A DNA stretch of 64,000 nt from a virus: IMG/VR virus record IMGVR_UViG_3300034782_000062, positions 1-64,000 of that record. One strand, given 5' to 3'. Numbering within the stretch: the first letter of the stretch is position 1; each line of letters opens with the position of its first letter. The notes under the pieces are model-generated. The model worked only from the letters and a program-made list of their open reading frames with translations, was not told the origin of the DNA and made no database searches. This document shows, in pieces, positions 1,541 through 59,423 of the stretch. The translations under genes and the position numbers were made by a program.

Positions 1541-1592
1541 GAGTGACTCTCCCTGGATTTCCCCATCTTACAGGACGATATTGACAGCCCGG

Positions 1593-7937: not shown

Positions 7938-7938
7938 C

Positions 7939-13835: not shown

Positions 13836-14825
13836 TCAGAGACTCAAGGCGAAGTCATCGTCATGGTCTCTTGGCCAAAGCTCGTCACAGTCATCCCTGA
13901 CAGCGCAAAGAAAGCGACGTGCATTGACTGGCCCCCTGTGATGGCGTGCTTCCTCCGGTGTGGGCATCCGGTTCATTCCGTAGCCCGCCATGAACACATC
14001 GGTGGTGCAGCGGTCATCGTAAAGCTCGATGCACCGACAGCGTATCCATGCCAATGCGTTGGCAGCTCCCCTTGTAGCACACAGGCGATCGAAGGGGCTG
14101 CAGCGCTCCCTGGTCTGATTATTCTTGAACCTCGGCATGAAGCGGCCCTCAATCCACCCGCGCTTTCCGTTGGACTGAGGTAGGAACTGGAACATCCCCC
14201 TCTCACCCCGCCCCCCAAGCTTCTTTCCAAGCTCAATGCGCCTGGCAAGCCTGGACTCTCTGTAGCCCATTGAGAGAAGATGGTAAGGACTCACATGGGG
14301 TACGTTGTTGCTCGCGACGTCCTCGGAGAATCTCTCGTCGATATCATGGCACGATTGCTCCTGTGCCTCGTGTGCTCCTCTGTAGAGATCAATCGCAATG
14401 AGCATCGCCCGCTGAATGCCGCCGTCCCATCCCTTTTCGAATGCAGGCTGCATGTCCAGAGTGGTGTGCAGAAGATCGACGTATTCGTCTGCCAAGAGGA
14501 TAGGATCAACCCCCTTTTCTTGACCAAGCCTGAAGATTTGGAGAGAGACGTCTATAGACTGAGCCTTCGCTCGCTTTGTCATTCTCTCAGACCAAGTGTC
14601 TCTGAAACCGTCAAGGATCTCCTCTCTCACGTCACGAGATGTCACCGGCTCCTCATCGGGTTCTTGGGACTCTTCCTCTTCCGCCTCAGTCAGCGGCTCC
14701 GATTCAACCTCAACCGGCTCCCCGTCCAATTCCTGCGGTGGCTCCGAGCACCGGGTCAAAACCAGCAGCGCCAGGGCTGCTATGACACACGACACCACGA
14801 CTACCCACCTCCGGATCATTTGCAT
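13836..14825 (-). CDS. Lysozyme/lytic transglycosylase-like membrane-anchored protein
   Basis: 329 residues; ATG with an excellent GGAGG site. An N-terminal hydrophobic helix (residues about 6-24) ends in LTRC, a poor lipobox because Arg precedes Cys, so it may be a simple anchor. An acidic spacer follows (about 27-62). The C-terminal half looks like a goose-type/SLT lysozyme fold: MGYRESRLARRIELG (catalytic Glu candidate), GERGMFQFLPQSN, CATRGAANALAWI and VFMAGYGMN. Six or more cysteines suggest disulfides outside the cytoplasm. A good promoter lies just upstream. A cell-wall-cutting role in entry or exit is inferred. Confidence 0.65.
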   Translation of the reverse strand: MQMIRRWVVVVSCVIAALALLVLTRCSEPPQELDGEPVEVESEPLTEAEEEESQEPDEEPVTSRDVREEILDGFRDTWSERMTKRAKAQSIDVSLQIFRLGQEKGVDPILLADEYVDLLHTTLDMQPAFEKGWDGGIQRAMLIAIDLYRGAHEAQEQSCHDIDERFSEDVASNNVPHVSPYHLLSMGYRESRLARRIELGKKLGGRGERGMFQFLPQSNGKRGWIEGRFMPRFKNNQTRERCSPFDRLCATRGAANALAWIRCRCIELYDDRCTTDVFMAGYGMNRMPTPEEARHHRGPVNARRFLCAVRDDCDELWPRDHDDDFALSL

Positions 14826-21144: not shown

Positions 21145-22275
21145 TTAACTCAACAGCCACTTAACCAAGGGTGCCGAGGTGGTTTCCCACGACCACTGAG
21201 CCTGTACCGCCTCGGCCATGTCCCGAGAAGCCTGCCTGAGGTTGTCATAGCCGTTGAGACAGCTCTCCATGGCTGCTCTTACGTCCGTGGCCCTTACTTC
21301 GGGCGCGAGCCCGAACTTACCCCACGCCTTGATCATCGGGCCGTGAGGCACTTCGACGATTCCCCAGCGGAAAGGAGCGTCGTCTGGATCCATATGATCC
21401 CTGTGCCCAGTGCAAAAGGTCTGGATGACAGGCACTCCGCATGCTCTCATCTCCAGGGGAATCATCCCGAACCCCTCAGCGCGGCTTGGGAAAACCCCAG
21501 CATGGCACCCAAGATAGCTCTTGCGAATCTCGTCCTGGGATCGAGCCCCAGAAAAGAAGTGGATTTGCATCCGACTCTTGACCTCTGAGGGAATTGCCTT
21601 GAGGAGCTGCCTGACCGGCTTCGACTTCATCCCAAAAATGATTCTCAGGATGACGTCCTGGCCGGCTTCAACGAGCTGCTCGAAGGCGTCGATGACCTGG
21701 GGCGTCCCTTTGCGCTCGGGAAAGAAAACAGCAGAGCACAAGTGAAGGAACACAAACTTCTCTCCGACGACCTCTTCATCGAACAAGTTATCATCCTGAG
21801 GACGAAACACCGGAGATAGACCATGGTTGAGAACCATGACCGGCCGTTCGACACCCGAGTCTTGGATTACTGACCTGTACCAGCTCGACGGCGTAAGGAC
21901 GAGGTCTTGCTGGTTCATGAGCTGCTTCCAGGAGTCCGGAAGCACGTCGACATCACCGACGAACATGCCGGCCATCTTGATACTGTTCTCCTTGACCCGC
22001 ATAAGGTGATGAGACGGGTTGACGGCCACGCACTTATCAACCCCGTCAACAGGAACGACCCCCCCCTGCACAAGATCGATCACCTCGTTTTGACTCAAGA
22101 AGGTGACCTGATCGTTTGAGTCGAAGCAGGGCTCCGTGTGATCCGGAGAGCCGTCCCAAGTAACGTCCGCAACAACCGGTTCGATTCCGGCTTCGAGCAT
22201 GGCTTTGAGGATACCCTTCGAGACGACCGGATAGCTGGTGTAGCCAGACACAGGCCCCACGAAAAGCACTCTCAT
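21145..22275 (-). CDS. Glycosyltransferase family 4
   Basis: 376 residues, GT-B fold. The N-terminal RVLFVGPVSGYTSYPVVSKG includes the glycine loop; the C-terminal domain has FLHLCSAVFFPERKGTPQVI and GVFPSRAEGFGMIPLEMRACGVPVI. In the latter, EGFGMIPLE is a canonical EX7E motif of retaining enzymes. Last gene of the second glycosyltransferase cluster; the start overlaps the upstream small gene by ATGA. Donor and acceptor unknown. Confidence 0.85.
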   Translation of the reverse strand: MRVLFVGPVSGYTSYPVVSKGILKAMLEAGIEPVVADVTWDGSPDHTEPCFDSNDQVTFLSQNEVIDLVQGGVVPVDGVDKCVAVNPSHHLMRVKENSIKMAGMFVGDVDVLPDSWKQLMNQQDLVLTPSSWYRSVIQDSGVERPVMVLNHGLSPVFRPQDDNLFDEEVVGEKFVFLHLCSAVFFPERKGTPQVIDAFEQLVEAGQDVILRIIFGMKSKPVRQLLKAIPSEVKSRMQIHFFSGARSQDEIRKSYLGCHAGVFPSRAEGFGMIPLEMRACGVPVIQTFCTGHRDHMDPDDAPFRWGIVEVPHGPMIKAWGKFGLAPEVRATDVRAAMESCLNGYDNLRQASRDMAEAVQAQWSWETTSAPLVKWLLS

Positions 22276-22517
22276 GAGTCTTTCCTTTTTTGACCAGGAC
22301 TTAATTTCGTCCTGCGAATGGAAAGCTCCGGCTGGTCCCTAGTAAACACGAAAATTGTACATTCGCGCAGGTCCAGCAATATCGGAGCGTCCGTCCTTGC
22401 GATGTGATAGGTGTTTCCGTGCTTGTCCTTCTTCGGGATGAGCTTCAGTGTCACATCGGTCTTCTGACCTTCGTCCCTCTCATCCGGAGGAGACCCTGTA
22501 TCCTTCCTAGAACTCAT
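22272..22517 (-). CDS. Small protein in glycosyltransferase cluster, unknown
   Basis: 81 residues from the ATG at 22517, 11 bases inside the previous gene's end. A polar N-terminus (SSRKDTGSPPDERDE) precedes two beta-strands (DVTLKLIPKKDKHGNTYHI and LDLRECTIFVFTRD). The phrase KDKHGN also occurs in the upstream glycosyltransferase. No family recognised. Packed between two glycosyltransferases with overlaps on both sides. Confidence 0.45.
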   Translation of the reverse strand: MSSRKDTGSPPDERDEGQKTDVTLKLIPKKDKHGNTYHIARTDAPILLDLRECTIFVFTRDQPELSIRRTKLSPGQKRKDS

Positions 22518-23946
22518 CGTCCGCTTCCTCCTCCGCGGTCTCCCTTGCATGCACAAGGGCCTGTGCGAGCTGCGTTCCCACGTCGAGTTGCCCGAACTTC
22601 GCCTGCATCGAATCCCAGGCGAGCCTGTCAGGGCCGAATCGCTGCTCAGCCGCAAGCCTCATGGCATCGACCAAGGAATCATCTTTCGGATCAGCCCATT
22701 GCTGCTCGGGCTCATAGCACCCGATGCCCTGCATATTTTTGACAGAGGTCAGCTCGTAATCCACGAGCAGATTTGGTCCGTAATCTCCTTCGACCTGCTC
22801 GACGGCGCCCGCCGTCCTGTAGGTCTGAAGCATCTCATCTCCGAACTTTTGCCAGGTGGTTCCGTTCTTGAGCACCTCGCAGGCTGCTCCCCATCCTGTC
22901 GTGATGACCCGGCTGCCACAGAGGCGCGCTTCCATTTCTGGAAGCCCGAACCCCTCTCCTCGGGTCGCTGAGACGTAGCAATCGCCGTCCAGGTGGAAGG
23001 CGCGTATCTGATCGATCGGCCATTGACCAGTGAAAAATCTAAGTGGTGGACGCTTCTCGGTGATACCCGACTGCTCCAGCGCTTCCTTTGCCAGCTCCTT
23101 GAGCTGACTCTTCTCCCCGCTGCTCTTGATCCTGAGGATGACGTCGTCTCGCCCCTGGAACGCCTTGAAATAGCAGCGCATTAGACCAGTAAGGTTTTTG
23201 CGTTCGATCGGAGTCGCGATGGAGTAAAACACGTACTTCTCGCGACCTCGATCGGGTAGCAGCTCTTCCTCTGTCGGTCTTGGCCATTTCTCCTCGTCGA
23301 AGGTGTGCGGCACCACCTCTATGGGGCACGAAACTCCGCTCTGCTCGAAAGCTTTTTTCGCATGCTCCGACGGAACAATGATGAGGTCCAGCTCGCTTAA
23401 CACGACTGCGATCGCTTCAGGCACCTCAGAGGTCTCCCAGACTGTGAGCCCGACATAGGCGACACCAGGGGGGCGCCCCTTCTTGACGAAGTTCGTGTAG
23501 TGTCGACAGATGGATGCAGGATCGTGGTGAATGACCACACACCTCACCTCGAAGCGTTGGCTGCTTGTGTACTGCTGCTCGACATCGAGATCGATTGATC
23601 CTTCTGTTATTTCGATCTCGACCTTCTCTGGATTCCCGTGTTTGTCCTTGCCGTCGATGATTCTCTTTGTTCCGATGCGCGGATCGCCAGCCTTGACCAG
23701 CGTCATCGGCTTCATGCGCACCTGGTCAGGTGGCCGCATCAGCGGCGCGAAGACCTCCATATCTGAGTCCGACTCACCATCAATCCGAAGCAGCGCTGTC
23801 GAAAGCGACGGCGGCAGACGGAGACCCTGATAATTCGTGCTCATCAGACCGCGGAGATAGCCCCTGGTAGCAAAGTCGTGGCCGTCGCCCATCCCCAAGG
23901 TGCTGTACCAAATCGTAATCGGAAATGCTTTTTCTTCGTCGCCCAT
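22507..23946 (-). CDS. Glycosyltransferase family 4
   Basis: 479 residues from the ATG at 23946 (GGAGG 5 bases upstream, one base after the previous stop). GT-B fold: ITIWYSTLGMGDGHDFATRGYLRG at the start, GVAYVGLTVWETSEVP, IIVPSEHAKKAFE, EVVPHTFDEE, then FYSIATPIERKNL and SATRGEGFGLPEMEARLCGSRVI. The last segment holds the EX7E motif. An insertion of about 60 residues (residues 75-145) with DGKDKHGNPEKVEIEI interrupts the N-terminal domain. Confidence 0.8.
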   Translation of the reverse strand: MGDEEKAFPITIWYSTLGMGDGHDFATRGYLRGLMSTNYQGLRLPPSLSTALLRIDGESDSDMEVFAPLMRPPDQVRMKPMTLVKAGDPRIGTKRIIDGKDKHGNPEKVEIEITEGSIDLDVEQQYTSSQRFEVRCVVIHHDPASICRHYTNFVKKGRPPGVAYVGLTVWETSEVPEAIAVVLSELDLIIVPSEHAKKAFEQSGVSCPIEVVPHTFDEEKWPRPTEEELLPDRGREKYVFYSIATPIERKNLTGLMRCYFKAFQGRDDVILRIKSSGEKSQLKELAKEALEQSGITEKRPPLRFFTGQWPIDQIRAFHLDGDCYVSATRGEGFGLPEMEARLCGSRVITTGWGAACEVLKNGTTWQKFGDEMLQTYRTAGAVEQVEGDYGPNLLVDYELTSVKNMQGIGCYEPEQQWADPKDDSLVDAMRLAAEQRFGPDRLAWDSMQAKFGQLDVGTQLAQALVHARETAEEEADDEF

Positions 23947-23947
23947 G

Positions 23948-24700
23948 TCACCCTCCAACCTTCTGCCACTCGTCGAAAGACACCTCCTTGAAGTGAGGCT
24001 CGACATCTTCCTGCCAGTACTGGGTCCACCAGTGGAAGTCGGTCCCGAGTCGAAGGTGGGGATTCATCACGATCTTGTGGATCAGGTGCCAGTAGAGGAT
24101 GCGTTTTCGCTCGGCAAAGACAGGATCGTCAGCCGACGGGCCTGCATGTTCGACCCAGGCAATGGGATCGTACTCACGCGCCCACACAGCCCACAGATCA
24201 CCCGTCGCCTTGTGCAGCGGCGCCTCGTGTATGTAGCCCATCATCTTCATGACTGACTTGCGGAAAACTCGACCGTTGTCATCGGTGAGTATCCCGGGGT
24301 CGAGCTTGCCTTCTACGACGGCTCGAACCTTATCCGGTTCGCCGCGCATTGCTCTAAGGGCAGGAACATTTTTATGAAGGTCGTCGATGGTGACCAGAAG
24401 ACCATTATCGTGCCAGACCTCGCCCGGATCGCCGTATATGATCCACTCGTTCGACGACTGGTCGACAGCCTTCTGCTTGGCCGAACCGAACCCATACTCC
24501 CACAGCTCTCGATCGCTGACCTCGCAGAATACGTCTGCCGTGTCCCTGAACCATCGGCGCGACTCGGCATCACTCTCCTGATCAGCGATGCTAATCTCCA
24601 GGTCGATGCCAGGGATGGCTCGAATGCTATCGATGAGCTGAACGGTCTCGTCCACTCTGTTGTGCGTCAGGATACACAACGTCATCGCAAGATCTGCCAT
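23948..24700 (-). CDS. Glycosyltransferase family 2-like protein
   Basis: 250 residues, ATG with GGAGG at 5 bases. The N-terminus has the GT-A first strand (MTLCILTHNRVDETVQLIDSI) and LEISIADQESD. The expected DxD position reads IIYGDPGEVW, so metal binding may be weak. A WAVWAREYDP segment and a long aromatic C-terminus (FHWWTQYWQEDVE) follow. Part of the 21 to 25 kb glycan cluster. Confidence 0.65.
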   Translation of the reverse strand: MADLAMTLCILTHNRVDETVQLIDSIRAIPGIDLEISIADQESDAESRRWFRDTADVFCEVSDRELWEYGFGSAKQKAVDQSSNEWIIYGDPGEVWHDNGLLVTIDDLHKNVPALRAMRGEPDKVRAVVEGKLDPGILTDDNGRVFRKSVMKMMGYIHEAPLHKATGDLWAVWAREYDPIAWVEHAGPSADDPVFAERKRILYWHLIHKIVMNPHLRLGTDFHWWTQYWQEDVEPHFKEVSFDEWQKVGG

Positions 24701-33187: not shown

Positions 33188-33718
33188 CTACATCTCCATA
33201 TCGAGCAGCGACCACTTGCTGTTGGGGTTGCCGCCCGAGGCTCTCGGGATCGGACCAGCCGCTCCCGGCGTCTGAGAAACCGGCATGATTCCACCGGACA
33301 TTGCTGGAGCACCTCCGTTAGGAGGGACGCCGTTGCCGTTGGGCAGAGCACCGCCATTCATCATGGCCTGGGCCTGTTGATTCATGGCCTGCATCTGAGC
33401 CGGTGGGAGCGCGCCAGCAACGGTTTGACCGTTGGGTAGAGCGGCTCCGTTCTGCGGAGCCTGTGCGACGGTCGGATAGTGCATGACCATCGAGACCGCA
33501 TAGGCTCCCGCAACCCCTGCGACTGCCACCGCCGCGTTCGCCATGCCCCTCTTGTGAAGGTAGTAGGCCAACCCGGCTCCGGCGCCAGCAGCGAGGACTT
33601 TGTGAGTGGTAGAAGATTGTCGCCATCGTGTGATTGGCGCCTTGGCAACGTCGGTGAGCATCCCAGAAAGACCGGAGAGCCCAGCGAGCGCCGCCAGAGA
33701 ATTTCTAGCAGCGTTCAT
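33188..33718 (-). CDS. Small membrane protein with NG-rich tail
   Basis: 176 residues. Two hydrophobic stretches (about 40-55, VLAAGAGAGLAYYL, and 62-80, AAVAVAGVAGAYAVSMVM), then a long flexible Gln/Asn/Gly/Pro-rich tail with ALPNGQT and ALPNGNG. The NGNG composition recurs in the 1,171-residue protein (NGLVNGNG repeats). Probably a particle-membrane protein. Confidence 0.5.
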   Translation of the reverse strand: MNAARNSLAALAGLSGLSGMLTDVAKAPITRWRQSSTTHKVLAAGAGAGLAYYLHKRGMANAAVAVAGVAGAYAVSMVMHYPTVAQAPQNGAALPNGQTVAGALPPAQMQAMNQQAQAMMNGGALPNGNGVPPNGGAPAMSGGIMPVSQTPGAAGPIPRASGGNPNSKWSLLDMEM

Positions 33719-33722
33719 GGTC

Positions 33723-34253
33723 CTAGCCCTTCGTATCGACGATCCTGAAGACCTTGCGCGGATACTTCGCCTCCAGCGCAGCCTGCTTCTTCCGTGCCGA
33801 GGTCAGCAGCTTGTGCGAGGACTGGTAGCGCATGCTTCCATCCACCACGACATAGCGCTGACAACGCGTCGGACAAGCCCTGACCGTCACGGACGAGCCC
33901 TTGCGACGCTTCGGCGTGGCGCGCTTTGCGGCCGTCTTGCGCTTCGGCGCGGCCTTTTTGGTGGTTCTCTTGCGCTTCGGCGCGGCCTTGCGAGTGGCCG
34001 TCTTCTTGAGACCGTAGGCCTCCTTCACCATGGTCGGCGTAACGCCTGCGCGTCTCTTGCCCATCTTGGTGAAGAGCTTCTGGTCGCGCTGCGACATCGG
34101 TCGGCCAGCGCAAGGCTTCCCCGTCACGGGGTGGCCCTTGACGTCCTTGCCCCAGGTTAGCCCCTTCTTCTTCGCCGGGTTCTTCCTCGCGGGCTTGCGG
34201 CCCGTGTTCCGGCGAACTGTCTTCTTTCGAGCATTTTTTCTTGCGGTCGCCAT
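33723..34253 (-). CDS. Histone-like basic protein
   Basis: 176 residues with AAGGAGG upstream. Lys/Arg-rich N-terminus (RKNARKKTVRRNTGRKPARK), then a conserved block KGHPVTGKPCAGRPMSQRDQKLFTKMG followed by AYGLKK, and alternating KRxTTKKAAPKRK repeats. The block GHPVTG..GRPMS.RD.KLF plus AYGLK also occurs in the 1,171-residue protein (residues about 315-370), so both share a domain. The C-terminus (RYVVVDGSMRYQSSHKLL) is folded-looking. Likely compacts DNA in the particle. Confidence 0.65.
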   Translation of the reverse strand: MATARKNARKKTVRRNTGRKPARKNPAKKKGLTWGKDVKGHPVTGKPCAGRPMSQRDQKLFTKMGKRRAGVTPTMVKEAYGLKKTATRKAAPKRKRTTKKAAPKRKTAAKRATPKRRKGSSVTVRACPTRCQRYVVVDGSMRYQSSHKLLTSARKKQAALEAKYPRKVFRIVDTKG

Positions 34254-34860: not shown

Positions 34861-35691
34861 CTACACCACGACCGCCCCAGTCGATATCCAAGTTTCAGCC
34901 GGCACTCCTTGGAATGCGCTGACCCAAGAGTTGTAGTTTGCCCCTGATCCCCATGTCTCTTCCATAACCGATTCGCAGGGCTGCCCGATGGCTGAGCGCG
35001 AAACAGGGCACTCGCGTGCTCCTGGATTTGCAGAAACGTGACCGGGGGCAGTATGCCCACCGTGCTCAATACCCCAGAGCACGCCTGGTGTCTGGGCCAT
35101 CTCATCTCGCACCTGAGCAATGAAGCTTCGCTCTCCTCCATCTTCGTAGGAAGCGCTGCTCCATCCGGACTCGCCTGGATTACTCGCAGAGGAGCAACCA
35201 GCCCAGCCAATCCAGCCGCCTGCTGCCATTCGAGGCCCAACCTCGCGAGCAAACGTTCGATGAGACATCCACGTCGGGAGCTGATCGTCTCCGACACGAA
35301 TTCCAGAGTGGCCAGGGCGCATGTACTGTGTCGTCGTCCCGTGGCCCACCATGATGAGATTCTTGATTCTGCGATAACGCCTCACCGCATCGAGAACATC
35401 TTGCGCGTTTCGAGCTGGATAGAGAGCCGCTCCAATGTTCGCCGCGATTCGCTCGCCAACGTGTCGGAACTCGCCAGCACCATCTCCCTCGGCGACGTAG
35501 ATGACAACGTTGTCTCCCGTCGTTACGACAGCGGTGTAGATGACACCACCGATGAGAATGGCCACGCTCAGGCCACCGGCCGCGAGCAGCAGCGGCCTTT
35601 CTTTAAGGTGATCAATGAAGTCACGCGCGACACTGAAGAATCGAGGATTCTCGTTCCACTCGTACTCAACGATGTCGGCGTCGTACTGCAT
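34861..35691 (-). CDS. Membrane-anchored clan CD-like cysteine peptidase candidate
   Basis: 276 residues, ATG overlapping the upstream stop as TGATG. N-terminal FFSVARDFIDHLKERPLLLAA runs into a transmembrane helix (about 37-57), an arrangement shared with the upstream SleB-like protein (FKERPLIALLGAGAMVLLGY). In the soluble part, a hydrophobic strand ends in MVGHG and a later one in IGWAGCSS. This His-Gly ... Gly-Cys order is the clan CD (caspase/gingipain-like) dyad. It could process the particle proteins. Family membership is unproven. Confidence 0.45.
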   Translation of the reverse strand: MQYDADIVEYEWNENPRFFSVARDFIDHLKERPLLLAAGGLSVAILIGGVIYTAVVTTGDNVVIYVAEGDGAGEFRHVGERIAANIGAALYPARNAQDVLDAVRRYRRIKNLIMVGHGTTTQYMRPGHSGIRVGDDQLPTWMSHRTFAREVGPRMAAGGWIGWAGCSSASNPGESGWSSASYEDGGERSFIAQVRDEMAQTPGVLWGIEHGGHTAPGHVSANPGARECPVSRSAIGQPCESVMEETWGSGANYNSWVSAFQGVPAETWISTGAVVV

Positions 35692-37181
35692 CAAGCCACC
35701 GCCGATCGTCGTCGTGCGTTGTCCGCTGTGATAAAGATGTTTCCAGCCACGTTCACGGCATCGGCCGAGCCCTCCAGACCCGTTCCGGCCGCACGGAAGT
35801 CAGTCCTCGTTCCGATAGGATTCGGCACCTGGCCAGCGACGAACCGCTGCACTAGATTCGTCAGCGCAGGTGGAAAATCCGTCCAGGGCTTCGATCGAAG
35901 CGCACGCCGAAAAGCAACTCTCTCTGGAGTACACATGTCGGGGCTACTCGGACAGCGCCCAGAGTTTGGATCTACCCACGCCGGGTTAATTGGCTGCGAA
36001 TAGGCCTGAACGAATGACCCAAGTGTCGGATAAAGCTGACGCTTCTGCCCAACTGTCATGTAGTGGTTCGCGTAGGCCCACAACACCGCCGACGCACCCT
36101 GCTGAACATCGCTCTGACTCCAGGCCGACGGTGTCCTGCTGACCTCTCCCCAGATGGAGCGCGCCAGCCAGAGCATGTCGTCCTGAGTAATCTGGTACGG
36201 AGCTTCGCCGGGGAAGTGCATGACGCCATTGACGATTTGAGCCCCAGAAGAGAAGCTACTCTGCGCTGTCTTGACGATGCGGTAAATCGCATAACCCAAC
36301 AGCACCATCGCTCCTGCGCCAAGCAGCGCGATAAGCGGCCTTTCCTTGAAAAAGTCAACAATCTCGACGAAACGTTGAGCAAGCGTCCGCGGGCGGTTGT
36401 ACATCATCGCCCGGCTCAAACGTCGTTCTGCCAGCTCTCGATTCCGCACCATTGGGCGAACGTCCTGAAGACTCGCCTCGCACAGACGACCAACTCTCTG
36501 TGTCTCCTCTAAAATTTTGAACTGACAGGGATCGCAAGCCTCCGGAGCGATTCCTACCTCATCAATATCCAGGGAGAGCTGCCTGTCTTCATATTCCTGT
36601 TCGTCCGCATGGACCTGGTCCGGCACCACAAAGACACGCTCAACCTTCTTGCGCTTGCGCCTCTGGGGCACGACGATGACTTCACGCACCGTCTCTTCTT
36701 CATCTTCATTCCGGTCGATCAGGGCTTCAGCAACCAGGGCTTCTAGTCGACGAATATCCTTACGGATATCGTCGTCAAGACGCTCAGTTCGCCGACGAGT
36801 CTCACGGCGCTCGGACTTCGAGGTCTTCTTTCGGCGACGTTTCCCTGACTTGGAAACAAACTGACCGGATTCCTTACTGCGCCTGACCTTGGTGCCCGGA
36901 ACGATGCCCTCTTCAAGAGCACTCTCATAGGCCCTCCGCTCGGAAGCGCTCCACTCATCCATGGGAAGGAACTGTCCGGTCTCAGGATCCTGAGGAGGAA
37001 TCCAAACGTCCTTAGTCGTCTTGCGGCGCTTTCCCTTCTTCTTGACGACTGGATTCTTGAACGCACCTTCCCTTTTCAGGCGGTCGAACGTGCGCTGATC
37101 CTTCTTGCTCCACAACTCACGAGGTAGAAAGGTTCCATCCTCTCCCCGTGGTGGCGTAAATGTTGTCTGACGCTTGGACAT
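35691..37181 (-). CDS. SleB-like cell-wall hydrolase with basic repeat N-terminus
   Basis: 496 residues. N-terminal 110 residues hold repeated units of the form G(T/Q)FLPxxxW(S)xxxxRxxxxxLxxEG (DGTFLPRELWSKKDQRTF, TGQFLPMDEWSASERRAY) with Lys/Arg-rich linkers. A charged helical part and a transmembrane helix (FFKERPLIALLGAGAMVLLGYAIY, residues about 288-311) follow. The C-terminal DMLWLARSIWGEVS, with a following helix and NPIGTRTDF ... VAGNIFI, resembles the SleB/hydrolase-2 peptidoglycan-cutting fold; Glu in IWGEV is the catalytic candidate. Start coupled to a 22-codon leader ORF. Confidence 0.55.
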   Translation of the reverse strand: MSKRQTTFTPPRGEDGTFLPRELWSKKDQRTFDRLKREGAFKNPVVKKKGKRRKTTKDVWIPPQDPETGQFLPMDEWSASERRAYESALEEGIVPGTKVRRSKESGQFVSKSGKRRRKKTSKSERRETRRRTERLDDDIRKDIRRLEALVAEALIDRNEDEEETVREVIVVPQRRKRKKVERVFVVPDQVHADEQEYEDRQLSLDIDEVGIAPEACDPCQFKILEETQRVGRLCEASLQDVRPMVRNRELAERRLSRAMMYNRPRTLAQRFVEIVDFFKERPLIALLGAGAMVLLGYAIYRIVKTAQSSFSSGAQIVNGVMHFPGEAPYQITQDDMLWLARSIWGEVSRTPSAWSQSDVQQGASAVLWAYANHYMTVGQKRQLYPTLGSFVQAYSQPINPAWVDPNSGRCPSSPDMCTPERVAFRRALRSKPWTDFPPALTNLVQRFVAGQVPNPIGTRTDFRAAGTGLEGSADAVNVAGNIFITADNARRRSAVA

Positions 37182-37334: not shown

Positions 37335-38231
37335 TTATTCTTCGCTCTCTTCCTCCTCGTCATTCTCCTCAGGAGCTGGATTCTCTTCAGGCTCTTCCTC
37401 TTCCAGCTCTTCGATCTTCTCGCCGTTCACGGTTGCGAAGAACCTGTCTTGCTCATCATCTGACAGGTTTTCGAGCTGAGCGGCGAGCTTCTCGCCAGGG
37501 CTGAGTCCCGGATTTCTTTCGGGCGGGAAAAGAGCGTTTTTGACAAAGCCAGTGACCTTCTCCGTCAGAGTTTCTTCTTCTGGATTTTTCCGCAGCTCCG
37601 ACTCTTCGCGCATGGCCTTGCCGACGGCCTTTCCCATCACGCGAACACGCTCCAGCTCGACCTCTCGCTTCTGCTCCGCCGCTTTGGTGGTCCGGTAGTA
37701 CACAAGACCACCGAGGCCGACGGCTCCAACAGCCGCGACGCCCCAGATGTTGTCACTGAGTGCCTGGAGCCCTCTCTCTAGAGGCGTGGCCGTCTGCTGC
37801 TGGTTCCCCTCCTCGATGGTTGTCAGATAGTCGAACACAGAGAAGACACCAGCGCCGATTGAGATCGCCACTGCCGCCACGGCGAATGGCACTCCCCCCA
37901 TGGGGAGCTGTTCTTCAAGACCTTCTGGAATACCGGCTTGCATCTCTTGGCGAGACGGCTCGTGACCCCTGAGCACCGACAAGAACTGCCGAAGCTGTTC
38001 GACAGCTCTCTGCTCCATCTGAGGGTCTCGATTCGAACGCAGAACCATCTGGACCTGCTGCGGCGTCATCATCGCTGCTCGCATCCCTGCAGCGCGCTCG
38101 TTGTTCTTGCGGCGAAGCTTGTGAAAGCGTGCAATGACTGCGCGAACCTTCGCAATGGTGTCGCGCATCTCCCTTTCTTGCTCAGGAGATGCCATCGCCA
38201 TTTGTTCTTGCATGAATTGAGGCTGTGTCAT
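37335..38231 (-). CDS. Two-pass membrane protein with helical N-terminus and acidic tail
   Basis: 298 residues from the ATG at 38231 (ATGA overlap with the upstream gene). A helical Gln/Arg-rich N-terminal region (residues about 15-95) is followed by two hydrophobic segments (about 113-135, PFAVAAVAISIGAGVFSVF, and 163-182, IWGVAAVGAVGLGGLVYY) and a charged helix (EQKREVELERVRVMGKAVGK). A highly acidic C-terminus ends it (EELEEEEPEENPAPEEN). Follows the capsid candidates directly, so a membrane-associated particle protein is likely. Confidence 0.5.
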   Translation of the reverse strand: MTQPQFMQEQMAMASPEQEREMRDTIAKVRAVIARFHKLRRKNNERAAGMRAAMMTPQQVQMVLRSNRDPQMEQRAVEQLRQFLSVLRGHEPSRQEMQAGIPEGLEEQLPMGGVPFAVAAVAISIGAGVFSVFDYLTTIEEGNQQQTATPLERGLQALSDNIWGVAAVGAVGLGGLVYYRTTKAAEQKREVELERVRVMGKAVGKAMREESELRKNPEEETLTEKVTGFVKNALFPPERNPGLSPGEKLAAQLENLSDDEQDRFFATVNGEKIEELEEEEPEENPAPEENDEEEESEE

Positions 38232-38914
38232 CGTTGCTGCTCCAAGATCTCCTCGATAATGTTCGAGTCGATGAGCCATCCCTCAACACGAAAGCCAACG
38301 GTGCCAATGGGAACTGGCGAGACTGCCCTGTTGATATAGTAGGCTTCCACCTCTCGCCCTGACTTCGCATAAAGAGAGAACTCCACCTCACGGGAACCAA
38401 CGCGATCACCCAAAAACGGGAAGTAAGCTCTGTCTTCAGCAGGCAAAAGCGGCTGCACCCTTGTCGAACGAATTTCGACTGGCACTACCTCACCTATCTC
38501 GAAGAAGCATTGAACCGACCCCTCGATGACCCCGGGGGGGAGCAGCTCACCAAGACCGAAAGCAGCTTTGGCGAAGAAGTACATGTTGTCGATGACGAGG
38601 GTCCGATCGGAAGGCACATTGAAGCTGAGTATGGGGAATCGCCGCCCCAGAGGGACTGTGCTGAACTCGACCTCGTCGGTGAGATCGACGAAGACTATCT
38701 GCTCGTCTTGAAGACGGGAATAGAAGTCCTTAACCAGCCTGACACGACGGGCATCTTTTTTGCCGCCGCTGATAGGCTTCGCCCTGAGCATATCCGGGTC
38801 CAGTCCATAGACCTTCTCCCGAACCTGGGGATTGATCACACCGGGTTCTTTGTGGTCGCGCCTGACCAATGGCCCGATCGGAATACCGTGGCGCTTTTTT
38901 CGTCCGCCACCCAT
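38228..38914 (-). CDS. Beta-rich candidate capsid/spike protein
   Basis: 228 residues; GGAG upstream. A basic N-terminal arm (GGGRKKRHGIPIGPLVRRD) precedes a run of alternating strands: IVFVDLTDEVEFSTV, FPILSFNVPSDRTLVIDNMYFFA, SVQCFFEIGEVVPVEI, EVEFSLYAKSG and VGFRVEGWLI. Basic arm plus eight-strand pattern and about 200 residues fit a single jelly-roll capsid protein. It is adjacent to two other beta-rich proteins. No sequence homolog can be named, so this is a structural guess. Confidence 0.4.
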   Translation of the reverse strand: MGGGRKKRHGIPIGPLVRRDHKEPGVINPQVREKVYGLDPDMLRAKPISGGKKDARRVRLVKDFYSRLQDEQIVFVDLTDEVEFSTVPLGRRFPILSFNVPSDRTLVIDNMYFFAKAAFGLGELLPPGVIEGSVQCFFEIGEVVPVEIRSTRVQPLLPAEDRAYFPFLGDRVGSREVEFSLYAKSGREVEAYYINRAVSPVPIGTVGFRVEGWLIDSNIIEEILEQQR

Positions 38915-38917
38915 CGA

Positions 38918-39688
38918 CTACATCTCCAGCGGCTGCAGCACCTTGAAGCCGTCGAATGTAATCTTGAGCTGAAGGTTGACGGGACCTGAATCGATTTCTT
39001 CACCCGACCCGATCGAAAGGATTGGAACAGCTCTGAGGGGGTTGCAGATGAAGCTGATCGTCGTGCCGGCAGCGAAGATTTCATTGTTCATGAAATATCC
39101 GTCGTCGTCACGGCGAAACAGGATATCCCCGCTGATAGGCTTGTCCTGACGGTTTCGCTCGCTTCCGCCATCGCTGTACTGCCACTCGAAATCGAGAGGC
39201 GGCGCTATGTAGCCATCGAATGGAGGTGTACCGGTACTGAACGCAAGCTGAGCTGCGTCACGTGCCCAGTTGAAGTACTCAACCCTCGAAGTGACAGGTG
39301 CAAACCGACCGATAAAGTCGGTATAGTCCGCTGTTCCGAGACCGATCACCTCCAACGATGGGGCTTCGGTGTAGATGAGCGAAGCAAACAGTCTTCGGGC
39401 GATGAATGGACCGTCTCGGCTGACGTTCACCGTCCCCGTCACGGGAGCCTGAGACCCACCTGGCAGGTTGATGTTGATCTGATACTTGTACGGGAGTTGC
39501 TTGCCAGGCATGTCGTCGATGTGAACTTCTTGGCGCTCCAGCGTCTCGCGAGCCTTCCGTTCATCCGCCAGCTCGGCAGAAAGGCGCTGGTTTTCGACAA
39601 CAGCCTCATCGATCTGCCCCTGAAGCTTGCGCAGTTCGAACGCGACCTCAGGTGCAATAACTCGCCGCTTTCCGTTGTTGTTTGGCAT
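38918..39688 (-). CDS. Candidate minor capsid protein, beta-rich with N-terminal coiled coil
   Basis: 256 residues, GGGAGG upstream. Residues about 15-55 form a charged coiled coil (ELRKLQGQIDEAVVENQRLS), then beta strands from about 65: PYKYQININLPGG, GTVNVSRDGPFIARRLFASLIY, RFAPVTSRVEYFNWARD, LDFEWQYSDGGSERN, TTISFICNPLRAVP and VNLQLKITFDGFKVL. The FIARRLFASLIY strand and the DFEWQYSDGGSxR loop give a jelly-roll-like pattern. Separate transcription unit from the downstream side of the main capsid candidate. Confidence 0.4.
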   Translation of the reverse strand: MPNNNGKRRVIAPEVAFELRKLQGQIDEAVVENQRLSAELADERKARETLERQEVHIDDMPGKQLPYKYQININLPGGSQAPVTGTVNVSRDGPFIARRLFASLIYTEAPSLEVIGLGTADYTDFIGRFAPVTSRVEYFNWARDAAQLAFSTGTPPFDGYIAPPLDFEWQYSDGGSERNRQDKPISGDILFRRDDDGYFMNNEIFAAGTTISFICNPLRAVPILSIGSGEEIDSGPVNLQLKITFDGFKVLQPLEM

Positions 39689-39796
39689 CCTTCCAACCTC
39701 CCGTCATGAACGGGGTAACAGCTCATTGCGAGCCGCCTCTGGCCGGAACGATGTTAAGATTGCCGCACAGACCGGCCAGGACAATGATGGGTATCA

Positions 39797-39825
39797 GCCC
39801 CTCCCGTCACCAGGACGAGAGGGGC
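39797..39825 (-). terminator. GC-rich hairpin downstream of capsid candidate
   Basis: GCCCCTC and GAGGGGC arms with a 15-base loop. The U-run is poor, so it could be a 3'-end stabiliser rather than a terminator. It also lies in the leader of the next gene. Confidence 0.35.
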
Positions 39826-39855
39826 GTCACCTCACTTTTTCGCGTCAGAGACTCT

Positions 39856-39873
39856 AAGGGGCTCTAACCCCTT
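39856..39873 (-). terminator. AAGGGG/CCCCTT hairpin after capsid candidate stop
   Basis: Six-pair stem with a 6-base loop, 8 bases after the stop at 39881. No T-run follows in the direction of transcription, so it may be an attenuator or RNA-stability element. Confidence 0.35.
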
Positions 39874-39880
39874 GAAATCC

Positions 39881-40528
39881 CTACTGAACCTCGCGAGTTC
39901 CGAGACCGTCAAGGAAGTACTTGATATCCTTGGCGATGTCGTCTTCGAGATTCAGTGCCTGCACCAGGTCGTGGTCCGCGGTGTTCGCCATGGGGAAGAC
40001 CTCTGCGAGAACTTCGATACCCTGGCGGGGCGGGACGGCGATCGGGCGACCGAGGCGAAGCAGAGCCGAGTGGCTGGGCACGCCGTTGTTGATGAGGACA
40101 AGCGAGGTGTCCCCACCGATGTCGCCGTAGATGCCGGCTGCCATGGGCACGTAGTGGGTGCCCGACACGAACTGCGGCTTGTCGCCGATGGCGACCGTCC
40201 AGAAGAGCTGGGCCTGGCACTGCAGGTACAGCCTGTGGACGTAGTAGGCCGGCGATCCGACCAAGCCGGACGTCAGCTCACCCGCACGGAAGTGCGTGAG
40301 GCAGCGGAGCGCCTTGATCTTGAAGGTCCGGTCGGCGACGAGCTGACCGGCGATCTTCATGTTGGTCCAGGCCCTGTTACCGAGGTTTGTCCCCGAGAAC
40401 AGACGGGTCTGGGTGCTCACCGGCTGACCGTTCGGGCCGATGTTCGTGGTCGCGTCCGACACGCCTCGGCAGAGGGTGTCGTACAGGGGCTGATGCAGAC
40501 GCTCGATGACGCCAACGATTGCAGGCAT
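39881..40528 (-). CDS. Candidate major capsid protein (single jelly roll)
   Basis: 215 residues with GGAGG 9 bases before ATG and a structured 5' leader. Codon choice is strikingly skewed to C/G-ending codons compared with neighbours, suggesting very high expression. After a short N-terminal helix, residues 45-200 are beta strands: TRLFSGTNLGNRAWTNMKIA, GQLVADRTFKIKALRCL, HRLYLQCQAQLFWTVAIG and IEVLAEVFPM. Size and strand count fit a single jelly-roll subunit of a tailless icosahedral virus. Hairpins follow the stop. The identity is inferred from expression signals, size and context, not homology. Confidence 0.5.
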   Translation of the reverse strand: MPAIVGVIERLHQPLYDTLCRGVSDATTNIGPNGQPVSTQTRLFSGTNLGNRAWTNMKIAGQLVADRTFKIKALRCLTHFRAGELTSGLVGSPAYYVHRLYLQCQAQLFWTVAIGDKPQFVSGTHYVPMAAGIYGDIGGDTSLVLINNGVPSHSALLRLGRPIAVPPRQGIEVLAEVFPMANTADHDLVQALNLEDDIAKDIKYFLDGLGTREVQ

Positions 40529-40554
40529 GTCTTTTCTCCTCCCGTTTTGATTCA

Positions 40555-40615
40555 GCCCTTGCGGGCCTAGCGGGTGGTCGTCCCGCTGTCTTACCTGCTA
40601 CCCCTCTCCGCGGGG
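40555..40615 (-). promoter_or_regulatory. Three hairpins in the capsid candidate's 5' leader
   Basis: GCCC-TTGC-GGGC (40555-40566; in the RNA the loop reads GCAA, a GNRA tetraloop), AGCGGG/CCCGCT (40569-40587) and CCCC/GGGG (40601-40615). They sit 13 to 75 bases upstream of the ribosome binding site. They probably stabilise a highly expressed messenger. Confidence 0.4.
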
Positions 40616-40652
40616 CCAAACACTCCGAAATAATGTTCAAGGCCTCGGGGAA

Positions 40653-40674
40653 GGCGGTCGGAGAAACCGCTTTT
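40653..40674 (-). terminator. GCGGT/ACCGC hairpin between giant gene and capsid gene
   Basis: Five to six base-pair stem with a 7-base loop, 43 bases after the stop of the 1,171-residue gene. The T-run (TTTT) is on the plus-strand side, so termination on the minus strand is uncertain. Confidence 0.3.
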
Positions 40675-40716
40675 CGGGGTGCACGTCCCTATCCCCGAGA
40701 CCATGATGACGATCAG

Positions 40717-43700
40717 CTAGAAGATTCCCTCTTCCTCACCGCTTGTGAAGATCCCCTCGTCACCGCCCTTGGGGCCGTGAGTCGGAATCGGCTCTGCCAC
40801 GCCAGGGACTCGACCGGGCGCCGGGTCGTGGACGGGACGTCGGTACATGGGAGCCGACCTGCGAAGCAGCGGGGGCTTCCAGGGTTCCATCGGGAGGTGA
40901 CCTGGTCGACCCGATACCTGGCGAACCCGCTGAGCGAACTTCTTGCGAGCGAGGCCAGCGGCTGCTCGGCCGAGCTTCGAGTAGAACGCGTCATCGAGAG
41001 GAAGACCGGCAGCGATGCGCTCCCGGACCATCTTGGCGACGGCCTGCTTGAAGCCAGGCATCAGCGGACGCGTTCGGATGCTCTGTTCGACGGCCGCGAC
41101 GGAGGGCTCCTGGCCCATGCCCGCGTAGGCCTCTTCGACCATCGCACCCATGCCGCTCATGGGAACTTCGAGGTACTCGCCGGTGCCGGCGTATGCCTCT
41201 TCGACCATGGCTCCCATCCCAGCGTAGGCTTCCTCGACCTGAGCGCCCATGCCCGACATCGGGACTTCCAGGTACTCACTCATCGGAACTTCGAGGTACT
41301 CGCTGACACCGCCGCTTCCGCCACCGGCGAAAGCCTCTTCGACCATGGCTCCCATCCCACTCATCGGGACTTCCAGGTACTCGCTCATGGGAACTTCGAG
41401 GTACTCGCCGGTACCGTCCATCCCAGAGAGAACACCCGCCTTGCCGCCTTCGAAGATGCCGCCCTGGTCGCCGCCCATACCGCTCATGCGGTCCAGCTCC
41501 AGCTCCAGCTCTTCCTCGATCCCACCGACACCGTCGAGGGCTGCCTCGTAGATGTCGATCTGACCGAATCCAGCGGTCCCCTCAGCCTCCAGCTCGGGCG
41601 GCATGCCGTTGCCGTTCACGAGGCCGTTGCCGTTGCCGTTCACGAGGCCGTTGCCGTTGCCGTTCACGAGGCCGTTGCCGTTGGTGACCATCGCCTGCGG
41701 AGCGATCGGGAGCATACCGTTGGCAGGCTCGACGATTGCGGCTGGTGCGGCCTCAGCAGCGCCAGCACCAGGCATGACCCAAGCAGCGTAGTCGGACGGG
41801 ATCGTCCTGGACGCGACGAGGTTCAGCATGATGTTGACGATCGCGGCCATACCAGCACCGGCTGCGACGAAGGGCTTCATCGCCTGCAGCTTCTCGTTCT
41901 CCGGCATCAAGGATGCGAGAGCCCAGAAGCCGAGACCGGCTGCGACGTTTCCGACGACCGAGGTCCAGTTGCCGAGGTGCTGAGAGATCGAGGTGACGTT
42001 CGTCAGAGCGCGACCAGCAGCGACCGCGGCGCCAAAGCCGATGAATCCGAGACCCGCTGCCTTGCCGACCGACATGAGCTGCTCGCTCGTCGGGAGCATG
42101 GCGAGTGCTTCGGGGTTCGTGACCATGGCGGCGTGGCCACCATTTCGCATCATGGCTCGCTGCTCACGCTTGGTGAGGAGGCCGAGCTTCTTGGCCTTTG
42201 CCTGCGAGATCCACTTGCCACCGTAGTGGTGCGGATACCACTGGTTCCTGCGGCCACCGGGGACCTTCACGCGCTTCCGACGCGGCTTCCGGCGCGTGTA
42301 GCTGTAGGGATGCACGCGGACCTTGGACCGCTTGTAGGGGTTGCGGGTGATCTTGCCCTTGCGGCTTCCCGTCTTCTTGAGACGGTAGGAGTAGCCCTTC
42401 ACCCTCACGCCGTCGGCGCGGGTGTAGCCCTTCACGCGAACGATCTTGCCCTTGCGGCGACCGTTCGAACGCTTGCGGGAGTAGGTGCGCTTGCGACCCT
42501 TGGCCTTGCGACGCGGGTAGCGGCGCATGTAGGTGCCGCCGCCCGGCTTGCGGACGCGGTACCGACGGGCCTTGCCGCGCTTGGCCTTCTTGGTGGCGCG
42601 CTTCTTGGTCGCCTTCCGACGCTTGGTCGGGTAGCGGCGCATGTAGGTGCCGCCGCCCGGCTTGCGGACGCGGTACCGACGCGGCCTGCGCGTGGTCTTC
42701 TTGGTGGCGCGCTTCTTGGTCGCCTTCCGACGCTTGGTCGGATAGCGGCGCATGTAGGTGCCGCCGCCCGGCTTGCGGACGCGGTACCGACGAGCGGTCT
42801 TCCGCTTGGCGGTCTTGCGCTTGGCCGGCTTGCGCTTCTTGGTGGTCGTGGCCTTTCGCTTGTAGCTGTAGGCCTTGCGCAAGATCTTTCCGCTTCGAGA
42901 GCGCTTGGCGGGGACTTTGACCGTGACGGTCTTGCCCCGACGGGCGGTCTTCTTCTTGGCGGTCTTCCGACGCTTGGTCGGGTACCGGCGCAGATAGGTG
43001 CCGCCACTGGGCTTTCGCACGCGGTAGCGCTTCCCAGTCGTGCGGCGGCGCTTCTTCGCGGTCGTCTTCCGCTTCTTGGGCTTCGCTGCCACGGTCTTCC
43101 TCCTGGTTGGTTTCGCCTTTTTTGCCGCGCTGGGCTTGAGCCCATACGCTGCGTTGACTGCCGCCGGCCCGACTCCCTTGCGAGTCGTTCCGTCGGTCTT
43201 GAACAGCTTGCTGTCGCGCTCAGACATGGGCCGACCGCCGACGAGCCGACCGGTGACGGGGTGGATGACACCCTGCCTCCAGTGACCCTTCGCCGCTGCG
43301 CCCTTGACACCTGGCGCTCGTTTCTTCCCCGCCGTCGCCTTGACACGCTGAGCACGCTCAGCTTTCTGCTTCGCGCGCTGGAACCCACGAGAGGTCCACT
43401 TCTTGCGCTCAGCCATCGTCATGGGCGTACCCAGGATGCCGCGCTTCTTGGTGCCGGGGTGGACGTCTGTCCGCCAACGAACCGTCTTGTTCGCCGTGAT
43501 GCGCTTCTTCTTGTTCGAGACCATGCGGCCCGTTCGGGTGTTGCGCTTCGGGGCCGGGTTACGACGACGAGTCGTCGTCTTTCTCCGGGTCGCCGTCTTG
43601 CGCTTCGGCTTTGCTGCTCGCTTGTAGGTATACGCCTTGCGGACGACCCTACCTGTACGAGTGCGCTTCGCCGGAACCTTCACGGTCACCTTCCGGGGCT

Positions 43701-44232
43701 TGCGCTTCGTGGCTCTCTTTTTGGTTGCCACTGACTTCTTCTTCCCTGCGGCATTGCGGGACTGGGGCCGCGACCGCGTGGAGTTCCTCTTCGGGCTTGC
43801 GCTCGAAGCTCGTTTGCTCGCAGATGCGCTACGCGACGTCTTCACGACGCGGCCGGAGACGGTGTTCTTGGAAACACTTTTTCTCCGGCCGGTATTCGCT
43901 CTGCGAGCATATGATCCAGCCTTTTTATTAGGAACCACACGACCGCTCACTTGCTTGGTCGAGGAGTTCTTCCGAGCCTTGGGAGACTTTCCACTCTCGA
44001 CGATCCTGCCCTGAACCGGATTCGAGGAGCGCCTGCTACTCCTTCGCGGCGAGGGGTTCTCCCATGCTGCCCGAGTCCGTTCACGACGAGAATACCTGCG
44101 GGGAAGGATGCTCTCATGGCCCCACCGAGACGCACTGGCGCGCGGTCTGGGGTTGACCATGGTCACACCGCGCCGCGTCCCATTGCTGGGATTCTTGCGT
44201 TTTGGTGTGTTCAGCACGTAGCCCTTGGCCAT
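40717..44232 (-). CDS. Giant histone-like basic / membrane / acidic repeat protein
   Basis: 1,171 residues. Residues 1 to about 690 are Lys/Arg-rich with SGRVV motifs, TVKVPAKR-R-G-(V/I)(V/L)RKAY-YKR repeats (two copies), four RYRVRKPGGGTYMRRYP repeats and one GxxHPVTGRLVGGRPMSERDSKLF block shared with the histone-like protein at 33723. Residues about 735-860 hold four hydrophobic helices (GLGFIGFGAAVAAGRAL, VVGNVAAGLGFWALASL, FVAAGAGMAAIVNIML). Then come NGNGLVNG repeats, acidic EYLEVPMSGMGAMVEEAYAG repeats, and a tail ending DEGIFTSGEEEGIF. It looks built to tie condensed DNA to a membrane. Own promoter and a structured leader. Confidence 0.75.
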   Translation of the reverse strand: MAKGYVLNTPKRKNPSNGTRRGVTMVNPRPRASASRWGHESILPRRYSRRERTRAAWENPSPRRSSRRSSNPVQGRIVESGKSPKARKNSSTKQVSGRVVPNKKAGSYARRANTGRRKSVSKNTVSGRVVKTSRSASASKRASSASPKRNSTRSRPQSRNAAGKKKSVATKKRATKRKPRKVTVKVPAKRTRTGRVVRKAYTYKRAAKPKRKTATRRKTTTRRRNPAPKRNTRTGRMVSNKKKRITANKTVRWRTDVHPGTKKRGILGTPMTMAERKKWTSRGFQRAKQKAERAQRVKATAGKKRAPGVKGAAAKGHWRQGVIHPVTGRLVGGRPMSERDSKLFKTDGTTRKGVGPAAVNAAYGLKPSAAKKAKPTRRKTVAAKPKKRKTTAKKRRRTTGKRYRVRKPSGGTYLRRYPTKRRKTAKKKTARRGKTVTVKVPAKRSRSGKILRKAYSYKRKATTTKKRKPAKRKTAKRKTARRYRVRKPGGGTYMRRYPTKRRKATKKRATKKTTRRPRRYRVRKPGGGTYMRRYPTKRRKATKKRATKKAKRGKARRYRVRKPGGGTYMRRYPRRKAKGRKRTYSRKRSNGRRKGKIVRVKGYTRADGVRVKGYSYRLKKTGSRKGKITRNPYKRSKVRVHPYSYTRRKPRRKRVKVPGGRRNQWYPHHYGGKWISQAKAKKLGLLTKREQRAMMRNGGHAAMVTNPEALAMLPTSEQLMSVGKAAGLGFIGFGAAVAAGRALTNVTSISQHLGNWTSVVGNVAAGLGFWALASLMPENEKLQAMKPFVAAGAGMAAIVNIMLNLVASRTIPSDYAAWVMPGAGAAEAAPAAIVEPANGMLPIAPQAMVTNGNGLVNGNGNGLVNGNGNGLVNGNGMPPELEAEGTAGFGQIDIYEAALDGVGGIEEELELELDRMSGMGGDQGGIFEGGKAGVLSGMDGTGEYLEVPMSEYLEVPMSGMGAMVEEAFAGGGSGGVSEYLEVPMSEYLEVPMSGMGAQVEEAYAGMGAMVEEAYAGTGEYLEVPMSGMGAMVEEAYAGMGQEPSVAAVEQSIRTRPLMPGFKQAVAKMVRERIAAGLPLDDAFYSKLGRAAAGLARKKFAQRVRQVSGRPGHLPMEPWKPPLLRRSAPMYRRPVHDPAPGRVPGVAEPIPTHGPKGGDEGIFTSGEEEGIF
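41155..41412 (-). repeat. Repeats encoding EYLEVPMS / GAMVEEAYAG
   Basis: Five copies of an EYLEVPMS-encoding segment interleaved with four GMGA(M/Q)VEEA(Y/F)AG segments, near-identical in DNA. They form the acidic C-terminal region of the giant protein. Confidence 0.75.
41605..41682 (-). repeat. 24-base tandem repeat (three units) encoding NGNGNGLV
   Basis: Coding repeat within the 1,171-residue gene, between its membrane helices and acidic repeats. Period 24 bases, marked by CACGAG at 41617, 41641 and 41665. Confidence 0.8.
42511..43027 (-). repeat. Repeats encoding RYRVRKPGGGTYMRRYP
   Basis: Four copies (around 42511-42567, 42625-42683, 42740-42795 and 42974-43027) in the basic half of the giant protein. 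The first three are almost identical DNA; the fourth is diverged (SGGTYLRRYP). Confidence 0.8.
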
Positions 44233-58787: not shown

Positions 58788-59423
58788 TCAGTCGCTTGAC
58801 TCATAGATCCTGTATTGCTTGACTCGCTGATGCATCCGCGGGGTTCGAGGTCCAGCGACCGGGTCGACTGTCACCCAACCACCACTCCCCTTCGCCGCCT
58901 GAGCGAAGACATGAGTGAATGGTCCAGGAAGCCTTGGATGCGGTGATGACATCAGACGAAAGGCGGGGTCCTCAAACAGCCTTGGATTCGGCGATTTACC
59001 GTTCGTCGGACGAAATCCGACGGTGACTATTCGACTTCTCCCACCGATTGAACCAATTGAGGCTCTCAAGAACGTAGCAAACTCATCGCAGTCGATGAGC
59101 GTCGAGCCGTAGTTGTCGATCTCCCACAAGATTCGCAGAGGATCCTTGACCTGCTCGACCTTTCGAGGGTCTCGCGTGTACCGGAACTGCGGGCCACATG
59201 TCCAGTAGTAAACCGCAAGGATTTCGCTCCAGTAATCTCGGGGACGAACGTATCGAATGATATCTTCGACTCGCTCACGAAGAGCGAACGACTTCTGACC
59301 GCGCTCACCGTCAGCAATGCGGAACATCTCACGCACTGTTTGCGGAGTTCCGCGGTATTTCATCACATTTACGGTCTGGTTTCCGGCCACCGGCCACACT
59401 CCGGCTTTAAAAATACCTGCCAA
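58788..59423 (-). CDS. Transglutaminase-like cysteine hydrolase
   Basis: 211 residues from a TTG start without a clear ribosome binding site; an ATG at 59363 is the alternative. LIDCDEFATFLRASIGSI carries the candidate nucleophile Cys, FTHVFAQAAKG the His and GWVTVDPV the Asp. This Cys-His-Asp order and the DCD(E/D)xA motif are typical of bacterial and phage transglutaminase-like peptidases. The upstream promoter has TTGACA at 59495-59500. It could process or cross-link the particle proteins encoded just downstream. Confidence 0.7.
   Translation of the reverse strand: MAGIFKAGVWPVAGNQTVNVMKYRGTPQTVREMFRIADGERGQKSFALRERVEDIIRYVRPRDYWSEILAVYYWTCGPQFRYTRDPRKVEQVKDPLRILWEIDNYGSTLIDCDEFATFLRASIGSIGGRSRIVTVGFRPTNGKSPNPRLFEDPAFRLMSSPHPRLPGPFTHVFAQAAKGSGGWVTVDPVAGPRTPRMHQRVKQYRIYESSD

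Follow-up and report, generated by a model that had tools for sequence, protein, structure and literature searches.

A minus-strand gene (40717-44232) in a 64,000-nucleotide stretch of viral DNA, hereafter the window, encodes a tripartite protein of 1,171 residues, made up of a hyper-basic N-terminal arm, a group of hydrophobic helices and a charged tail that includes acidic repeats. The window is part of a 182,770-base (182.8-kb) IMG/VR virus record, and the gene is recognized by its open frame, its codon bias and its partial homology to the gene at 33723-34253. At a confidence that falls slightly short of even, we interpret the product as an abundant core protein of a membrane-containing bacterial virus that condenses the genome or tethers it at the virion membrane. 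The preliminary description had proposed DNA condensation combined with attachment to a membrane, and this is the best-supported reading of the basic repeats, a free paralogue, the codon bias and a membrane-rich late module; we infer the location in the virion, the binding to DNA and the sidedness in the membrane. The gene would then correspond to the large DNA-condensing proteins of some eukaryotic DNA viruses, with a membrane tether added. If the protein works as its layout looks, the packed genome of a virus without close known relatives would be physically tied to the viral membrane, a single-molecule answer to joining the two.

An intact reading frame on the minus strand

The frame starts with ATG and runs for 1,171 codons with zero internal stops, in agreement with the earlier claim of one uninterrupted chain. 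Two sets of randomized sequences were used for comparison. First-order Markov copies of the gene region (n = 200) had a longest open run of 528 codons, and 64-kb Markov copies of the window had longest open runs of ~230-305 codons. Because no copy exceeded 528 open codons, a frame of this length is far beyond chance, and we rejected a chance ORF.

The opposite strand carries a long open frame as well (40519-43734, plus strand, 1071 aa), which is best read as a non-gene shadow of the minus-strand frame. GC at the third codon position peaks at 0.79 in the minus frame, whereas the antisense frame peaks at the first position, and the codon score is 0.166 for the minus frame versus 0.055 for the antisense frame; these two measures led us to reject the wrong-strand explanation. 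In addition, the homology to gene 33723-34253 runs in the minus frame, with 15, 22 and 39 differences at the first, second and third codon positions over 58 codons, and the neighbouring genes all lie on the minus strand. The openness of the antisense frame would follow from composition, since the stop-free codons of Lys and Arg are also stop-free when read backwards.

A hyper-basic arm with a domain shared by a free basic protein

The arm (aa 1-698; 42139-44232, minus strand) contains 257 Lys and Arg residues (37%) and only 12 Asp and Glu, giving a net charge of +245 and a pI of 12. It has no Cys. About 690 hyper-basic residues with repeats had been described, and the repeats are indeed present: four copies of RRYRVRKPGGGTYMRRYPTKRRKATKKRATKK lie at aa 401-573 (42514-43032, minus strand) in a unit of ~32-37 residues, two of them nearly identical in DNA with a period of 111 nt, and a KVPAKR-x-R-x-G-(R/K) unit occurs twice. 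The basic repeats are diverging. Judged by its composition, such an arm of ~700 Lys/Arg-rich residues could neutralize and condense viral DNA. A dsDNA genome of 182.8 kb has ~366,000 phosphates. With an assumed copy number of a few hundred, arms of +245 would together neutralize between a tenth and a third of them.

The arm also carries a small domain in common with a separate protamine-like protein of 176 aa (33723-34253, minus strand; net charge +51), a paralogue with high codon bias. The clearer, second copy (aa 318-381; 43090-43281, minus strand; HPVTGxxxxGRPMSxRDxKLF...AYGLK) is 55% identical to this paralogue over 58 aa (E 1e-16). Sequence comparison suggests that aa 252-312 (43297-43479, minus strand; W..DV.HP.T....G.PM) are probably a degenerate first copy, as their alignment with the second copy beat 497 of 500 shuffles and 3 of 500 scored as well. 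Because a domain at 55% identity is common to the arm and a separate basic protein, the arm is under protein-level selection and is more than low-complexity sequence. Two proteins with a specific domain in common, one of them with a membrane anchor, may have the same docking partner, and the domain would then dock the arm to the partner of the free paralogue.

Two further candidates found no support. The neighbouring protein at 33188-33718 was considered as the unfused membrane part of a split gene, but 23 of 500 shuffles reached its score and BLASTP gave no match. The SleB-like protein at 35691-37181 was tested for the shared domain as well, and its presence there was unsupported. The latter protein (minus strand) combines a basic N-terminal half, in which GxFLPxxxWSxxxxR occurs twice, with a membrane helix and a cell-wall-hydrolase-like C-terminal part.

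Predicted membrane helices, charged tail and topology

Downstream of the arm, Gly/Ala-rich hydrophobic helices at about aa 716-811 (41800-42087, minus strand) form three likely membrane spans. Hydropathy gives three clear helices at aa 719-737, 758-776 and 785/788-806, that is, three 19-residue peaks with KD of at least 1.5 within 90 aa, versus 15 peaks (at least 1.4) in 20,765 aa of early genes. Two of the three are rich in Ala and Gly and only moderately hydrophobic (KD 1.5). An AF2 model of this part, of low confidence (pLDDT 57), places helices at 716-744, 751-773, 778-807 and 813-834. The last of these, seen only in this weak model, has too little hydrophobicity for a membrane call, and we consider a fourth span doubtful; of the four hydrophobic helices noted previously, three hold by hydropathy. 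They are predicted to anchor the protein in the membrane of the virion or of its assembly site.

The helices are followed by Gly/Asn linker repeats of NGNGLVNG (aa 851-876; 41605-41682, minus strand; 24-nt unit), and by acidic repeats of EYLEVPMS / GMGAMVEEAYAG (aa 881-1045; 41098-41592, minus strand) with a net charge of -31. The acidic repeat tail of the preliminary description is therefore real over this region, but the tail is not purely acidic: a second basic stretch at aa 1046-1145 (40798-41097, minus strand; net +14) had been missed, and the final 26 aa have a net charge of -5. We speculate that the flexible acidic repeats and the terminal basic stretch contact another structural layer, or keep the arm from engaging other partners while assembly proceeds.

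For the acidic part to lie across the membrane from the arm, the number of spans must be odd, and its placement therefore depends on the choice between three and four helices. Export of a hyper-basic N-terminus of 700 aa across a membrane is unlikely, and the arm would almost certainly be made and kept in the cytosol. What it then faces would depend on assembly. A membrane that is wrapped around a condensed core, or that grows as an open sheet, would leave the arm facing DNA, whereas enclosure of the membrane in the manner of PRD1 would turn the cytosolic side towards the capsid, and the arm would then bind coat or lipid. In PRD1-style assembly the cytosolic face of the membrane becomes the capsid side and not the DNA side, and this geometry counts against a DNA-facing arm.

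The same geometry speaks for a different role, in which the protein is a capsid-membrane linker or assembly organizer whose arm lies on the capsid side and has lipid head groups or acidic structural proteins, not the genome, as its binding targets. Possible partners are present in the late module, which encodes several strongly acidic proteins; one of them, 37335-38279, has a poly-E tail, and its C side carries a net charge of -23. A precedent exists in VP11 of phage P23-77, a minor capsid protein of a membrane-containing bacteriophage that acts in assembly via lipid-protein contacts (PMC12429598; Pawlowski 2015). VP11 differs in its size of 22 kDa, P23-77 is defined by two single-jelly-roll major capsid proteins, and we found no sequence relation to VP11. 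However, the charge of the arm, +245 in 700 residues, and its protamine-like repeats exceed the needs of a linker, and the paralogue at 33723-34253 is protamine-like too, yet has no membrane part. We consider the linker role unlikely.

Codon bias, capsid candidates and the late module

Three genes stand out in the window by their codon usage. The highest GC3s values belong, in this order, to the genes at 39881-40528 (215 aa; 0.84), 33723-34253 (the 176-aa basic paralogue; 0.81) and 40717-44232 (0.78), versus a record mean of 0.63. Because the genes on either side of 40717-44232 have ordinary GC3, its high value is not a local composition effect. Some plus-strand, non-structural genes match the same bias, so that codon bias by itself is no proof of a virion role. 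On the premise that bias reflects expression, all three proteins are probably abundant, and the pattern would be that expected for one coat protein and two core proteins.

The 215-aa soluble protein, encoded directly downstream of the 1,171-aa gene (39881-40528, minus strand), is a candidate major capsid protein; it had no match in family and PDB searches. Two adjacent soluble proteins without membrane segments, of 256 aa (38918-39688, minus strand) and 228 aa (38228-38914, minus strand), are candidate capsid components. Homology searches with the 256-aa protein gave no match, and the 228-aa protein reached a pLDDT of 30 in a single-sequence AF2 model. For jelly-roll or capsid candidates in 38228-40528, sequence matches to the three proteins were absent, with the pLDDT 30 model as the single fold attempt. 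The gap between the 1,171-aa and 215-aa genes contains a match to the int-alpA RNA (RF02996; 40625-40699, minus strand; 40.3 bits versus a gathering score of 35.8), placed here as the leader of the 215-aa gene and remote from its described context.

These genes lie in a minus-strand module that is rich in membrane proteins. In the module (window 10-63 kb) 28 of 67 ORFs have membrane segments, versus 6 of 74 ORFs elsewhere in the record. Many of these proteins are small and have a single helix, including a family that begins with MYEY...PGGLGALG, and some, among them members of this family, have peptidoglycan-binding domains. About a dozen late-module proteins between 16984 and 58770 (minus strand) start with M(S/T)YEY or MYEY, continue with a Gly-rich GGLGALG/GLGTNG sequence and vary in the remainder; this N-terminus is possibly a common targeting or processing tag. 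The module is not purely structural, because it also encodes glycosyltransferases and hydrolases. Clusters of glycosyltransferase, polysaccharide pyruvyl transferase, methyltransferase and radical SAM genes at 554-9120 and 21145-24700 (minus strand) suggest a virus-encoded glycan.

Codon bias and genomic setting bear on two further explanations. First, the protein may be packaged with the genome and ejected on infection, when its Gly-rich helices would form a host-membrane conduit and the arm would travel with the DNA. The Gly/Ala-rich helices would suit such a role, and the module encodes cell-wall-hydrolase-like proteins with membrane or basic parts (35691-37181 and 13836-14825). Nonetheless, the codon bias suggests more copies than is usual for ejection proteins, and PHROGs revealed no similarity to known ones, which leaves ejection improbable. 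Second, the protein may act outside the virion, as an anchor during infection that holds replicating viral DNA, or the nucleoid of the host, to the cell membrane. This explanation draws on the layout alone. It sits poorly with a gene in the middle of a late-type minus-strand module, beside capsid candidates and with codon bias in common, and with replication-type genes detected outside the window and mostly on the plus strand; we regard it as very improbable.

Alternatively, the chain may be a precursor polyprotein from which post-assembly cleavage releases two separate products, a free DNA-condensing core protein and a membrane protein. Such processing is known for adenovirus core precursors, which are cleaved by a viral protease (PMC4246237). 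In the module, NP dipeptides are twice as frequent as composition predicts (57 observed versus 29 expected), with seven occurrences in the 1,171-aa protein; early genes show no such excess (40 observed versus 35 expected). NP often adjoins basic stretches or membrane helices in module proteins. The module also contains a transglutaminase-like cysteine hydrolase (58788-59423, minus strand; weak Pfam match, E 0.04) in which the Cys, His and Asp motif positions seem by eye to be present, a candidate maturation protease or cross-linker. Yet the maturation protease and the cleavage site are both putative, and NP may simply mark turns or domain borders, so that we judge a precursor to be unlikely. 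The geometry of the arm and the number of spans are the features that separate our favoured explanation, a membrane-tethered core protein, from both the linker and the precursor.

Comparison with known core and membrane proteins

Eukaryotic viruses are known to have protamine-like genome cores, and to our knowledge tailed dsDNA phages pack their DNA largely without protamine-like proteins. The adenovirus virion has no membrane. If our interpretation is true, nucleoprotein cores would have arisen in bacterial viruses as well, an architecture so far familiar from eukaryotic DNA viruses.

For the basic half, ascovirus P64 is a clear precedent, and the addition here is a predicted membrane anchor in the same chain. 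P64 of SfAV-1a condenses the genome through basic repeats and, together with the capsid protein, is the most abundant virion protein (PMC6163548). It is likewise large, with a pI of ~12 and tandem basic repeats, and has a repeated small adaptor-type motif. The arm has tandem basic repeats at the same pI, but their sequence is unrelated to that of P64. Furthermore, P64 comes from an insect virus, measures 64 kDa versus ~125 kDa here and has R/S-rich repeats, and membrane helices and an acidic tail go unmentioned for it. The P64-type 2-cysteine adaptor (PF08793) was unmatched in the whole record at E 10, and aa 1-698 are free of Cys. The TGR-V motifs of the arm were thus rejected as such an adaptor, and membership of the P64 family fails on this point.

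Other systems resemble single parts of the protein. Adenovirus proteins VII, V and X/mu are protamine-like and bound to packaged dsDNA (PMC5491326), but they are small, separate proteins of an animal virus. African swine fever virus (ASFV) pEP84R is a transmembrane protein of the internal envelope that organizes the genome core beneath it (PMC9910796), and in this sense is also a membrane-anchored core organizer. In contrast to the protein described here, pEP84R is small, has two helices and acts via the polyprotein pp220, not through a DNA-binding arm.

Relatives, head genes and the wider record

The statement that no described viral protein has this layout holds across IMG/VR, GenBank phages, plasmids, Pfam, PHROGs and NCBIfam, in which we found no relatives of the 1,171-aa protein. 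IMG/VR scans with this protein, with its 215-, 256- and 909-aa neighbours and with the AAA ATPase gave zero relatives, as did scans with the shared domain, the MYEY paralogues and a DNA pattern for the MYEY N-terminus. No meaningful match was obtained by tblastn of the protein and its neighbours against GenBank phages and plasmids, and a scan of genome contigs gave one match, in Paenibacillus.

Models for terminase (PF03237 and PF03354, the two large-terminase families tried), portal (PF04860), HK97 capsid (PF05065) and FtsK/HerA-type packaging ATPase (PF01580) were unmatched in the 182.8-kb record, whereas the terminase, portal, HK97 capsid and FtsK models do match in control genomes. Walker-A type motifs are few in the record, and the clear one sits in the AAA protein. 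A tailed-phage head is not indicated by these models. However, end repeats are lacking and the record may be incomplete, which makes the missing head and packaging genes weak, suggestive evidence. A broader proposal, that the record represents a new lineage of tail-less, membrane-containing bacterial viruses of very large size (>180 kb) with protamine-like genome condensation and DNA tied to an internal membrane by this one fused protein, rests on absences and composition; we think it rather unlikely as a whole. A 182.8-kb record without recognizable head or packaging genes nonetheless merits work on particles.

Elsewhere, at about 166-183 kb of the record, we found ~31 tRNA genes and a tmRNA with the tag VNTDNYHEAPLARAA; the tmRNA points to a bacterial host. 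The record also encodes a TnpB/Cas12-like protein of 587 aa (record 82383-84146; L003:384-2147), followed by a CRISPR array (L003:2211-2855) of 9 repeats of ~37 nt at a spacing of 72-77. Together they constitute a virus-borne compact CRISPR effector. The best phage relative of this protein is found in Virus Rctr197k (KX853510.1), likewise beside a CRISPR array; the annotation of this virus describes it as tailed and includes a terminase.
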